Shown piece by piece: positions 59,145 through 64,000 of a DNA stretch of 64,000 bases. Both the position numbers and the translations under genes were made by a program. Position 1 is the first letter of the stretch; each line of letters opens with the position of its first letter. The stretch is taken from positions 6,399,001 through 6,463,000 of the forward strand of contig NZ_CP031941.1 of the NCBI RefSeq assembly GCF_003443655.1, in the 5' to 3' direction. The notes beneath the pieces were generated by a model. The model ran no database searches, was not told the DNA's origin, and saw only the letters and a program-made list of their open reading frames with translations. The stretch is from Nostoc sphaeroides. Lineage in GTDB: Bacteria; Cyanobacteriota; Cyanobacteriia; Cyanobacteriales; Nostocaceae.

Positions 59145-61760
59145 ATGACCGCCTCTCACTCTGAAACTCCATCTACCAAGCCTGATGCAAGTACTTTTAT
59201 TTCTGACCATCAACAGGTGGATCGCAGTAAGCTAAGTCAAATGTACTTGCATTATGTCGAGACGAAGGATAAATATCCTCACGCGGTATTGTTGTATCGG
59301 GTAGGAGATTTCTTTGAATGCTATTTCCAAGATGCTGTAAAATTAGCGCAAGAATTGGAATTAGTTCTCACTAGTAAACAAGCTGGGGAACAGGGACGAG
59401 TGGCGATGTCTGGTGTTCCGCATCACGCTTGGGAACGCTACGCAACGCTGTTGGTAGAAAAAGGCTATGCAGTTGTAATTTGCGACCAAGTAGAAGATGC
59501 TTCAGAAGCTGCTGGTAGATTGGTGCGGCGGGAAGTAACGCGCATCCTGACTCCTGGCACTTTGCTAGAAGAAGGAATGCTCAAATCAAGTCGCAATAAT
59601 TACCTCGCAGCAGTAGTAATTGCCGCAAATCATTGGGGTTTAGCTTATGCAGACATCTCTACAGGGGAATTTCTCACAACTCAAGGGAGTGATTTAGAAC
59701 ATCTGACACAAGAATTAATGCGCTTGCAACCTTCAGAGGTGCTAGTTCCGACAAATGCGCCCGATTTAGGTAGTTTGCTACGTCCCGGAGAAACTTCGCC
59801 ACATCTCCCCCAGTGTTTGCCACCATCATTTTGCTATAGTTTGCGATCGCAAGTACCATTTTCCCAAGGCGAAGCTAGACCTAGATTATTGCAGAAATTT
59901 AAGGTGCGATCGCTCGAAGGCCTCGGTTGCGATCATCTTCCCCTCGCCGTTCGTGCGGCTGGCGGTCTTCTGGAATACTTAGAAGATACTCAAAAAGAAA
60001 ACCCAGTTCCCCTTCAAAGACTCCGCAGCTACACTGTCACGGACTATTTAATTGTTGACAATCAAACCCGCCGTAACCTGGAAATTACCCAAACCGTCAG
60101 GGATGGAACTTTTCACGGTTCCCTACTTTGGGCATTAGATAAAACTAGTACAGCGATGGGCGGGCGGGCATTGCGGCGGTGGTTGTTGCAACCGCTAATC
60201 GATATTAAAGGCATTCGGGCACGTCTTGATACCATCCAAGAATTGATGGAAAATACGCCCCTACGTCAAGATTTGCGGCAATTGTTACGCCAAATTTATG
60301 ATTTGGAACGACTCACAGGTAGGGCGGGTTCTGGTACAGCTAATGCTAGAGATTTAGTAGCTTTGGCAGATTCCCTCTCACGCTTACCAGAATTATCCAG
60401 CTTGGTAACTGAAGCACGTTCTCCATTTCTCAAAGCTTTGCAGAAAGTCCCAAGTGTGTTGGAGGAATTAGCACACAAGTTACACGCGCATCTTGTCGAG
60501 TCGCCACCCATACTAATCAAAGAAGGCGGATTGATTCGCCCTAGTGTAAATCCCTTGTTGGATGAGAGAAAGGCAACTGTAGAAGCGGATCAGCAATGGA
60601 TTGCCAATTTAGAAGTTGATGAGAGAGCTAAAACGGGTATTTCCACTCTGAAGGTAGGATTTAATAAAACCTTTGGTTATTATATCAGTATTTCCCGCAC
60701 GAAAGCTGACCAAGTACCCGCTCATTATATCCGCAAGCAAACTCTGACCAATGAAGAACGTTACATCACCCCAGATTTGAAGGAACGGGAAGCCCGAATT
60801 CTCACAGCGCGGGATGATTTAAATCAGTTGGAATATGAGATTTTTACAGCTTTGCGAGAAGAGGTAGCACAAGAGGCCGAAGTAATTCGCAATCTGTCTC
60901 GGGCAGTGGCGGCGGCGGATGTGTTGTGTGGTTTGGCTGAGTTAGCGGTGCATCAAGGTTACTGTCGTCCAGAAATGTTGTCAGGAAGGGAGATAAACAT
61001 TGTGGATGGGCGTCATCCAGTGGTGGAACAGTCTTTACCTGCGGGTTTCTTTGTGCCAAATTCGACTCAATTGGGGAGTAGGGAATCGGGAGTAGGGAGT
61101 AGTGAAGAAGAAATTTCCCCACTCCCCACTCCCCACTCCCCACTCCCCGATTTAATTATCCTGACTGGGCCAAACGCCAGTGGTAAAAGTTGTTATTTGC
61201 GTCAGGTGGGATTGATTCAGTTAATGGCGCAGATTGGTAGTTTTGTACCAGCTAGGTTTGCTAGATTGGGAATATGCGATCGCATTTTCACCCGTGTAGG
61301 TGCAGTAGATGATCTTGCAACTGGTCAATCTACGTTCATGGTGGAGATGAACGAAACGGCGAATATTCTCAACCATGCCACATCTAGGTCGCTAGTATTG
61401 TTAGATGAAATTGGTCGCGGAACAGCAACATTTGATGGTCTTTCCATAGCTTGGGCGGTGGCGGAATATATAGCAGTGGATATTCGGGCGCGAACGATTT
61501 TTGCTACTCACTATCATGAATTGAACGAATTGGCAAGTATTTTGCCGAATGTGGCTAATTATCAAGTGACGGTGAAAGAATTACCCGACCAAATTATCTT
61601 TTTGCACCAAGTCCAACCGGGAGGCGCTGATAAGTCTTACGGAATTGAGGCGGGAAGATTGGCGGGTTTACCAGCCGTAGTTATTCAACGAGCAAAACAA
61701 GTGATGGGGCAAATTGAGAAGCATAGTAAGATTGCGATGGGGCTGCAAAATCTGGATTGA
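59145..61760 (+). CDS. mutS: DNA mismatch repair protein MutS
   Basis: 871 residues. MutS recognises mismatches and starts repair. The mismatch-binding loop GDFFECYF is at about residues 52-59. The connector and lever domains are complete (GKSELQ-like RNNLAAVVIA..., [18 protein letters not shown]). The ATPase has Walker [40 protein letters not shown] (Walker B) and FATHYHEL. About residues 643-668 (SRESGVGSS...PTPHSPLP) are a translated CCCCACTCCC-type repeat just before Walker A. The C-terminal codons contain the target of a CAST homing guide, and the element begins 4 bp after the stop, so the gene remains whole. Confidence 0.96.
61701..61720 (+). other. CAST homing target: PAM GTG plus 17-nt protospacer in the mutS 3' end
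   Basis: ATGGGGCAAATTGAGAA at 61704-61720 is identical to the first 17 nt of the spacer behind the delocalised repeat. GTG at 61701-61703 fits the GTN PAM used by Cas12k. From 61704 to the transposon edge at 61764/61765 there are 61 bp, within the 60-66 bp reported for V-K insertions. The sequence encodes MGQIEK in a conserved C-terminal helix of MutS. Confidence 0.92.
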
Positions 61761-61764
61761 TATA

Positions 61765-61880
61765 TGTCGATTGCCAAATTATTTGTCTGCGTTGACAAAT
61801 TAATGTCCGTATTGCCAAAATAATGTCCCCATTAACTATGCCATCAAATTGTGTTAGCTAACCATTAACAAAATGATATC
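61765..61880. repeat. CAST left end with four TnsB-binding-type repeats
   Basis: Terminal TGTCG, then ATTGCCAAATTATTTGTC (61770-61787), GTTGACAAATTAATGTC (61791-61807), ATTGCCAAAATAATGTC (61811-61827) and a degenerate ATTAACAAAATGATATC (61864-61880). The first three are spaced by 20-21 bp. Known V-K ends have the same TTGACAAATTAATGTC-like repeats and begin with TGT. Confidence 0.9.
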
Positions 61881-61972
61881 GTTAGATTTTTCAACATAGT
61901 GTGTTATTTAATACATTATTTTGCTACATAATAACACAGCTTTTAAAATTCACGTTGTGTTTAACTTTTTTA

Positions 61973-62026
61973 TTCTCAATTTGCCCCATCTTTCAACCCA
62001 CCTTACTCTGATATTGCAGTTGAAAC
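61973..62026 (-). ncRNA. Delocalised atypical repeat and mutS-matching spacer (homing crRNA)
   Basis: A 37-bp unit (61990-62026) shares the first 8 and last 14 positions of the array repeat almost exactly on the minus strand (GTTTCAAC...AGGTGGGTTGAAAG) but has an unrelated middle. It lies 128 bp from the array. Directly 3' on the minus strand comes ATGGGGCAAATTGAGAA (61989-61973), identical to 17 nt of mutS. V-K elements use such single repeat-spacer units with short matches to home to an attachment gene. A possible hairpin (TGTGTTATT/AATAACACA) lies further downstream at 61938-61900. Confidence 0.9.
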
Positions 62027-62153: not shown

Positions 62154-62556
62154 CTTTGAACCCGCCTCTAGCTGGGAGGGGTGTTGAAACTTGAGTAGTG
62201 AGATAGAATTCGTTTCGGAATTGTTCTTGCTTTCAACCCGCCTCTAGCTGTGAGGGGTGTTGAAACTAGCCTATGGCAGAAAATCCCGCCAATGCTATGT
62301 ACCTTTCAACCCGCCTCTAGCTGGGAGGGGTGTTGAAACATGAGTTTCGGAGCAAGCTTCTCTCCATGTCTCCCTCTTTCAACCCGCCTCTAGCTGGGAG
62401 GGGTGTTGAAACAAATAATTCTTCACGAAATTAACCAGTAACTCATAATCTTTCAACCCGCCTTTAGCTGGGAGGGGTGTTGAAACGCGGCTGTCGCCCA
62501 ACTTAATCCACAGCAGCTACTTTCAACCCGCCTCTAGCTGGGAGGGGTGTTGAAAC
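62154..62556 (-). CRISPR. Type V-K CRISPR array, six repeats and five spacers
   Basis: 37-bp repeats at 62154, 62230, 62303, 62376, 62450 and 62520 (starts on the plus strand), with spacers of 39, 36, 36, 37 and 33 bp. On the transcribed minus strand each repeat begins GTTTCAACACCCCTCCC and ends GGCGGGTTGAAAG, as in known Cas12k systems. Repeats 1, 2 and 5 each have one substitution; repeat 1, the leader-distal one, has it in its last bases (GGGTTCAAAG). No spacer match was found elsewhere in this window by eye. The leader side faces tracrRNA and cas12k. Confidence 0.96.
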
Positions 62557-62744: not shown

Positions 62745-62980
62745 CAAAAAATAATTAAGGTGGGTTCCTCCTTGGTCGGAGGTGATTCAGTAGCCACCAC
62801 TGCGGTAAACCCGCACCTCTATCACTGGGGGCGCACCTAATTCCTATCCACAAGGGATAGCAGCATCAAGGTGGGCAGCTACCAGGGTCAGAAAGCAAGA
62901 CTGTTTAGCAGCAGTCAAACTAACCCAAATTTACACAGCACAGAGGCTTATAACAAGCATGAACTGCGGCGCTGTTGAAT
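62745..62980 (-). ncRNA. tracrRNA of the V-K system
   Basis: The minus-strand sequence contains blocks that I recognise from the S. hofmannii tracrRNA, in the same order: GCGCCGCAGTTCATGC, GGGTTAGTTTGACTG, CAGTCTTGCTTTCTGACCC, TGGTAGCTGCCCACC, GATGCTGCT, TAGGTGCGCCCCCAG, GTGGCTACTGAATCACC and GGAGGAACCCACCTTA. The anti-repeat AACCCACCTTA (about 62767-62757) pairs with the 3' part of the repeat. A T run (62751-62746) follows. The 5' end lies 38 bp after the cas12k stop. Confidence 0.92.
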
Positions 62981-63017: not shown

Positions 63018-64000
63018 TCAGTTTATTTTGCGGGAATGGTAAGCGGAGATCGCTAATTCTTTCGCTTTCTCTTGTGGACTACCTCGAATTGGCTGTTTTG
63101 ACTCCTCTATCACAATTCCAGCTTTAACAGCTGACGAGTGAATATTTGCCATCAATCTGCCATAACTCCACTGATGGACGCTAACTCGGTACTGTTTAGC
63201 ATACTTTTGTTGAACTTCTATTAAGTCTGATTTTTGTTCAGTTTTGGCTTGAACCTCACTTTGAACTTGCTCTCGCATATTGTCCAACTTAGGTAGAACA
63301 ATACTTCCAGCAGAGTATGTTTGGGCGATCGCAATAATCTCTTTCGCTAGTAATCTGTCAATATACTCCCCTAACTCCGATTCTCCAAACTGATTTGGTG
63401 CAGCAAGCGTTTGAGCTATTTGGCGTTGGTGGGATAAAAAATGCTTTTGCTGTCGCTGTCGATTTAGCAGTTTGTAATTATCACCCAGTAGTTGTTTGAT
63501 GCTGCGATAGGTAATTACTTGACCTGTAGTGCCGTCTACTACCGCTAGCGTTGCAGGCTTTTCTAAGCCGAGGCTAATACCAATAAGAATATGAGATTGT
63601 CCTTTATATAAAGGTTTAGTGGGGCGAGGAAAAGGGTTATTAATTCTGTCTAAGGTGGAGTTTTTCCGTTTTATGTGGGCTTGCTGTTTTTCATTAAGGT
63701 CGCCTTTGGCTTTTGTATTAGTGATAATTTTAGCGATTTCTTCAGCTTTCTCTTCCCTTACTTGATTGGTTCCTTCAGTCGTCCATAGGCGTGTATCCAC
63801 AGAACAGTAGAGGGTTAAGCGATTAACATTCCAAGGATCGCCTTTGCCTTCCTCTTCTTGCCAAGCAATACGCCCACTACGCAGGGTGAACAGGCTACTA
63901 GAGTGCTGGTTTTTACTATTTTTCTTAATTTGTTGATCTTCTAGGAAGCGTTGAAACCAGTGAAGGTGGCGAGAATCACAATAGACTTGAAAACTATGCT
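63018..64000 (-). CDS. cas12k: Cas12k effector, C-terminal part (5' end beyond the window)
   Basis: About 326 residues of the roughly 640 expected; the frame is open to the window edge, and the ATG at 63800 is internal. The visible part begins HSFQVYCDSRHLHWFQRFLE and includes LFTLRSGRIAWQEE, LYCSVDTRLWTTEG, AKGDLNEKQQAHIKRKNSTL, NNPFPRPTKPLYKGQSHILI, SIKQLLGDNYKLLNRQRQQK and the C-terminus GSPQEKAKELAISAYHSRKIN. It is a close relative of S. hofmannii Cas12k. Cas12k is a nuclease-dead Cas12: it binds the guided target and recruits TniQ/TnsC. No acidic RuvC triad in the usual form is seen, in agreement. Confidence 0.96.
   Translation of the reverse strand, partial: HSFQVYCDSRHLHWFQRFLEDQQIKKNSKNQHSSSLFTLRSGRIAWQEEEGKGDPWNVNRLTLYCSVDTRLWTTEGTNQVREEKAEEIAKIITNTKAKGDLNEKQQAHIKRKNSTLDRINNPFPRPTKPLYKGQSHILIGISLGLEKPATLAVVDGTTGQVITYRSIKQLLGDNYKLLNRQRQQKHFLSHQRQIAQTLAAPNQFGESELGEYIDRLLAKEIIAIAQTYSAGSIVLPKLDNMREQVQSEVQAKTEQKSDLIEVQQKYAKQYRVSVHQWSYGRLMANIHSSAVKAGIVIEESKQPIRGSPQEKAKELAISAYHSRKIN

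Follow-up and report, generated by a model that had tools for sequence, protein, structure and literature searches.

A type V-K CRISPR-associated transposon (CAST) of Nostoc sphaeroides lies directly behind mutS, and on the sequence comparisons described below the best explanation is that it was guided, very probably, to the 3' end of this protein gene by a lone repeat and spacer of its own. The window, i.e., the whole stretch of 64,000 nucleotides that was analyzed (G000:C1:6399001-6463000), contains the following features.

59145-61760, plus strand: the attachment gene mutS, uninterrupted and 871 aa long (1060.6 bits with the NCBIfam MutS equivalog)
61701-61703, plus strand: PAM GTG, a Val codon of MutS (from the sequence)
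61704-61720, plus strand: protospacer of 17 nt within mutS, encoding MGQIE(K) (from the sequence)
61765-61839, plus strand: left end of the CAST, starting TGTCGATTGCC, with repeats like TnsB sites (48.0 bits with a left-end model from 50 other V-K loci)
61973-61989, minus strand: delocalized homing spacer of 17 nt, ATGGGGCAAATTGAGAA (from the sequence)
61990-62026, minus strand: lone diverged direct repeat of the homing guide, apart from the array (from the sequence)
62154-62556, minus strand: ordinary CRISPR array of six 37-nt repeats, five of which reach Rfam CRISPR-DR15
62756-62766, minus strand: predicted tracrRNA anti-repeat AACCCACCTTA, complementary to TAAGGTGGGTT in the lone repeat
63018-64000, minus strand: 3' part of cas12k, which runs off the window (full gene, 636 aa, at L003:4018-5928)

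The element and its guide

The repeat, spacer identity, PAM, distance and orientation claimed in the original prediction are all present base for base at these positions, and mutS is left intact by the element, as had also been claimed. The lone repeat is recognizable over 37 nt, and its spacer is the same as mutS positions 61704-61720 at all 17 bases (18 of 18 when the last G of the repeat is counted). The transposon end at 61765 is 61 bp from the PAM and 4 bp past the mutS stop codon; this distance falls within the 46-82 nt to the left end given for the anchor spacer in the part of PMC9938897 that describes it. The match between spacer and flank is beyond chance: when 2040 random 17-mers were taken from 51 such loci and compared with the 1.2-kb flank of the locus of origin, none matched at two or fewer mismatches. 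The sole exact match to PAM plus guide in the genome is mutS; the guide itself has two mismatches, in the PAM part, and the next best sites have three. The window contains no tRNA, so the protospacer does not belong to a tRNA gene and the target is mutS.

An inverted copy of window positions 61761-61807 was found at G000:C1:6478134-6478179 (83% identity, E 2.2e-5), which gives the element two related inverted ends and a length of ~17.4 kb (6460765 to 6478175). Its type V-K genes (cas12k, tniQ, tnsC, tnsB and a cvkR-like gene) are uninterrupted, with tnsB, tnsC and a small tniQ in order adjoining the right end and the CRISPR array and predicted tracrRNA beside cas12k. Cas12k reaches 979.4 bits with NCBIfam V_Cas12k (cut-off 150), the best PDB matches of Cas12k, TnsB, TnsC and TniQ are ShCAST chains (ShCas12k for the effector), and the CvkR-like regulator matches Alr3614. 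Only one full-length TniQ was found, of 168 aa and matching ShCAST TniQ; a second TniQ piece of 114 aa is below Pfam's cut-off. The element also carries an ISL3-type transposase, the TniQ fragment and, as cargo, a type I restriction system (L004:4651-6746) whose methylase subunit is divided between two open frames. Extra TniQ fragments occur at L004:6833-7177 in the mutS element and at L152:2087-2422 beside the element of genome G087, which has a second tnsC-like stretch as well (L152:4561-5361); these pieces point to nesting or fusion of elements.

Between cas12k and the array, the DNA shares 95-97% identity with its counterpart in three close cas12k kin, and within this stretch AACCCACCTTA is an unbroken 11-nt complement to the lone repeat, the array repeats having a mismatch there. 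Better pairing of the lone repeat with the tracrRNA was considered and dropped, since the computed best duplex energies (-26.4 kcal/mol for the lone repeat versus -25.2 to -29.0 for the array repeats) do not separate the two kinds of repeat.

By analogy with known V-K CAST biochemistry, the lone repeat would pair with the predicted tracrRNA, and Cas12k with the lone guide would home to the conserved Val(GTN)-Met-Gly-Gln-Ile-Glu stretch of mutS. The Cas12k-guide complex, together with TniQ and TnsC, would then mark the site, and TnsB would insert the element ~60 bp away, the end on the CRISPR side lying closest to the target. These steps are taken from that biochemistry, whereas the spacer, PAM, distance, orientation, empty sites, other mutS-guided elements, scars and mosaic make-up are read from sequence. 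An att-targeting crRNA explains nearly all natural V-K insertions according to the relevant part of a review (PMC11406308).

Empty, occupied and scarred mutS sites

Examination of the mutS loci of relatives, as proposed in the original prediction, revealed the empty site exactly at the predicted point in four congeners (G044, G054, G015 and G064). In these genomes mutS and the DNA of the element's far flank form one continuous stretch (1019 bp aligned at 93-95% identity), the junction reading GGATTGATATC and then TTACCGC or TTACTGC. The insertion point is thus where the guide predicts, in a native site that is uninterrupted. A YhaV-type toxin gene (L004:12632-13090) and a small upstream ORF (L004:12163-12639) flank the right end of the element, and the YhaV toxin stretch directly follows mutS in the uninterrupted congeners. 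In three further genomes (G017, G043 and G063) mutS is joined to the inner far flank and has no left end behind it; these were not counted as scars.

ShCAST makes a 5-bp target-site duplication. The far end called for in the original prediction is present as the inverted 83% copy, but no intact ATATA duplication accompanies it: the 5-mers next to the element are ATATA on the left and TGTAT on the right, so a target duplication is not shown. Either side can be read as four of the five bases of ATATC, the sequence of the uninterrupted sites, with a one-base shift needed on the right. The duplication was judged from the far-end 5-mers alone; the joined-flank alignment takes the right flank from L004:12179, 3 bp further in. 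Three events might account for the unmatched 5-mers: a duplication of ATATC may have decayed, two insertions may have fused, or recombination may have processed a cointegrate, a form that V-K CASTs produce according to part of the review (PMC11406308). Target duplication is not among the features in section 6 of PMC9938897.

The original prediction had also proposed a search of other V-K CASTs for spacers matching mutS 3' ends, and this yielded three more elements, in three other genera, at the same place. The mutS guide pattern (three or fewer mismatches) occurs in 4 of 217 genomes of the family, in four genera, and the reversed control gave 0. In a sample of 388 genomes from the order, a similar pattern with two or fewer mismatches turned up in three, each belonging to the home family; the sample did not include G214, the remaining genome with the mutS guide. 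One of the mutS-guided genomes is evidently Anabaena subtropica FACHB-260 (L043 = L154). For all four guides the target is the mutS adjoining the left end, with a GTG or GTC PAM at 61, 61, 61 and 58 bp from that end. In each of the four, position 9 of the guide carries the base of the host mutS, A or G, and the guides of G087 and G214 have two mismatches and one, respectively, to their own host mutS, all at wobble positions. The plasmid and viral records searched gave no match to the mutS guide; Cas12k was found in two plasmid records.

Remnants of a V-K left end follow mutS in 9 of 52 congeners, scoring 9.7-38.6 bits with a model built from 50 other V-K loci that included no mutS-homing element, and their extrapolated starts fall at PAM+60 to +63. 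Among the controls, no score exceeded 6.1 bits in 1060 mononucleotide shuffles or 0.8 bits in 52 stretches (from 51 congeners and the own genome) lying 700 bp beyond. Antisense cas12k fragments accompany four scars (G046, G065, G005 and G008), and a further cas12k remnant lies 7 bp behind a MutS match on the MAG contig L087. Two scars recognized by eye (G014 and G049) and the matches in G004 (5.5 bits) and G059 (4.1 bits) were not counted because the shuffles reach 6.1 bits. The scars suggest that such a site has been filled and vacated repeatedly. At two of these loci, L144 (G005) and L135 (G051), the left-end remnant provides the mutS stop codon, and MutS thereby gains a few residues from the transposon end; in G051 there is one ambiguous base at this point.

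The target would be expected to persist. mutS is present in all 53 genomes of the genus, the own genome included, and a Val codon of the form GTN supplies the PAM in all 53. The protospacer is unchanged in 25 genomes, has one mismatch in 22 (at position 6 or 15, both wobble, in every case) and has two in the other 6; in two of these six (positions 4+5 and 5+6) not all changes are at wobble positions. It is the invariant Val codon, together with protospacers that are exact or, in all 22 one-mismatch genomes, changed at wobble positions, that would preserve the site.

A different history, in which a single ancient insertion behind mutS was inherited and decayed and homing did not recur, is improbable, even though the scars of G005, G008 and G046 look alike. 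Against it, the four congeners described above are uninterrupted, and the mutS-guided elements elsewhere (L043, L151 and L153) have cas12k genes only 74-83% identical in DNA to that of the element. Moreover, a Cas12k tree of 46 rows does not group the four mutS-homing elements together: they lie scattered, and its starred branches force at least three label changes (the rows are the mutS element, L151 and L153, together with 43 of 73 loci, those whose open frame spans enough of Cas12k). Inheritance from one insertion may hold for some of the scars, but not for the whole pattern. Guided homing to mutS by separate elements remains the preferred reading, and V-K elements have likely landed repeatedly at mutS, a site outside the usual tRNA genes. 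Counting against this reading are the unmatched 5-mers, the mismatches of two guides to their own hosts, the restriction of the guide to the home family with no match in the plasmid and viral records searched, duplex energies that do not favor the lone repeat, and ten Cas12k loci with at least 3 kb of flank but no lone-guide match. The claim that mutS is the attachment site is upheld by the empty site in four congeners, by three more mutS-guided CASTs in other genera and by the left-end scars. It is to be amended in that the mutS site is common to a set of elements and that mutL is used likewise.

Survey of V-K guides and the mosaic guide cassette

A lone guide with a match in the flank (0-2 mismatches) was identified at 51 of 73 Cas12k loci, all 51 with a GTN PAM and 52-66 bp from PAM to left end; the counts leave out one row (L046 at 15250, PAM AAG, not repeat-like). 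The targets of 42 of the 51 are in, or no more than 40 nt from, a tRNA called by ARAGORN. The nine without a tRNA comprise mutS (L043), mutL (L048 and L049) and six others; by eye, the targets of L059, L062, L067, L076 and L092 resemble tRNA 3' ends. At L071:13103-13516 (Laspinema sp. D2d) the lone V-K guide has its match in a flank with no ARAGORN tRNA and no recognized conserved gene end. No lone-guide match was found at the remaining 22 loci, where less than 1 kb is left after cas12k in 11, at least 3 kb in 10, and one is the mutS scar L087.

The two V-K CASTs that lie behind mutL, L048:4169-5890 (Nostoc sp. NMS7) and L049:14149-15873 (Nostoc linckia z4), have the guide ATTGGTAAAAGTCATGG and the PAM GTA, which is also a Val codon. 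Of 217 family genomes, seven have the mutL guide pattern, five with mutL in the flank examined and two without it. The distance from PAM to transposon end is 61-64 bp in four of the five and 58 or 97 bp, by two calculations, in the fifth (L165). By sequence, L163 and L165 appear to be the same as L049 and L048, respectively.

The guide cassette of the mutS element has a history unlike that of the rest of the element, which is the second amendment to the earlier reading. The element's cas12k is 94-96% identical in DNA to those of L035, which homes to tRNA-Val, and of L036 and L077, which home to tRNA-Arg, yet the 54-nt repeat plus guide has no match in these three loci. Among 17 loci compared, it matches only L043, L151 and L153 (91-93%), the mutS-homing elements with the more distant cas12k genes. 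Over the whole cassette the identity is 0.76, 0.68 and 0.55 to the mutS group versus 0.39, 0.43 and 0.52 to the three cas12k kin, against a shuffled control with a mean of 0.31 and a maximum of 0.37. Identity to the mutL-homing L049 is 0.58, and L077 and L049 share part of the element's left end, so that the mosaic contrast rests on the repeat and guide.

The simplest reading of these comparisons is that an address cassette, comprising the lone repeat, the spacer and downstream DNA, would have passed between V-K CASTs; recombination is the presumed means, and the direction is likewise presumed. Such an exchange would have given a new address to an element that, by its cas12k, is closest to elements homing to tRNA-Val or tRNA-Arg. 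It may have taken place at the shared site itself, if a newcomer fused with a decayed resident's left end; such a fusion would garble the target duplication as well. Since four related cassettes carry the same mutS address in distinct Cas12k lineages, cassette exchange is directly testable. We lean, by a small margin of confidence, toward a broader generalization in which the delocalized V-K guide is a swappable address cassette, the repeat and spacer being exchanged as a unit that re-addresses elements, and in which tRNA genes are joined by a second class of safe harbor, made up of mutS and, separately, mutL, both genes of mismatch repair, a class entered via a conserved Val(GTN) codon that gives the PAM.

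The cassette also bears on the proposal that the element arrived behind mutS by another route, through an array spacer or an untargeted insertion, and that the mutS-like spacer was copied from the flank later. In the laboratory, V-K CASTs insert off-site more often than other CASTs do, according to part of the review (PMC11406308), and the lack of a matching duplication would fit this course of events. We nevertheless regard it as very unlikely: the mutS cassette is alignable over ~170 nt in four genera and mismatches two of its hosts, so it was not newly copied from those two, and in every case the PAM and the distance agree with the general V-K rule.

Known systems and literature

The guided insertion that we favor resembles that of ShCAST, AcCAST and AnCAST, the V-K elements with an "anchor spacer," in its Cas12k, TnsB, TnsC, TniQ and CvkR-like regulator. 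Shared as well are a lone repeat and 17-nt spacer outside the array, a GTN PAM, a distance of ~60 bp to the left end, and the CRISPR-side end nearest the target. It differs from them in that the attachment gene is the protein gene mutS rather than a tRNA gene, in that its lone repeat is recognizable over 37 nt rather than the 12-13 nt in papers on these systems, and in that its guide cassette is of other origin than its nearest cas12k kin.

Tn7 and the I-B1 CAST insert just behind glmS, where, as with the mutS element, a conserved chromosomal protein gene stays whole; they rely on recognition by a protein, TnsD, in contrast to the predicted RNA guide here. That a TnsD-type protein and not a guide RNA recognizes the end of mutS is hardly credible, for while glmS and tRNA genes are recognized by TnsD proteins in other Tn7-like elements (according to part of PMC11406308), the sole full-length TniQ of the element is the 168-aa ShCAST-like protein and the 114-aa piece is below Pfam's cut-off.

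Type I-F3 CASTs, with their categorized guides, likewise keep a separate guide for a conserved chromosomal site, but use Cascade where the mutS element uses Cas12k. They move by cut-and-paste. In the mutS element no tnsA is visible between tnsB and the right end, a stretch without any ORF of at least 60 aa except one starting 13 bp inside the right end.

The mode of homing is known; what appears new within the literature searched is the use of mutS and mutL as sites, the recurrence of these sites and the mosaic cassette. Among the matches listed, no paper names mutS or mutL as a V-K site; the tables of Saito 2021 (Cell), Hsieh & Peters 2021 (bioRxiv) and PMC9881144 could list them. In the available parts of PMC11406308, PMC9938897, PMC10293859, PMC8649781, PMC11656645 and PMC12719977, "mutS" is not among the matches listed, and none of the six is among the matches listed for mutL with Cas12k. 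Exchange of a delocalized guide is likewise absent from the matches listed, and a review states, in the part available, that how CASTs acquire spacers and the source of the delocalized crRNA are unclear (PMC11656645). The 3' ends of mutS and mutL provide natural pairs of guide and target for inserting DNA behind cyanobacterial protein genes, and the wobble mismatches give a hint of the degree of mismatch that a guide tolerates.
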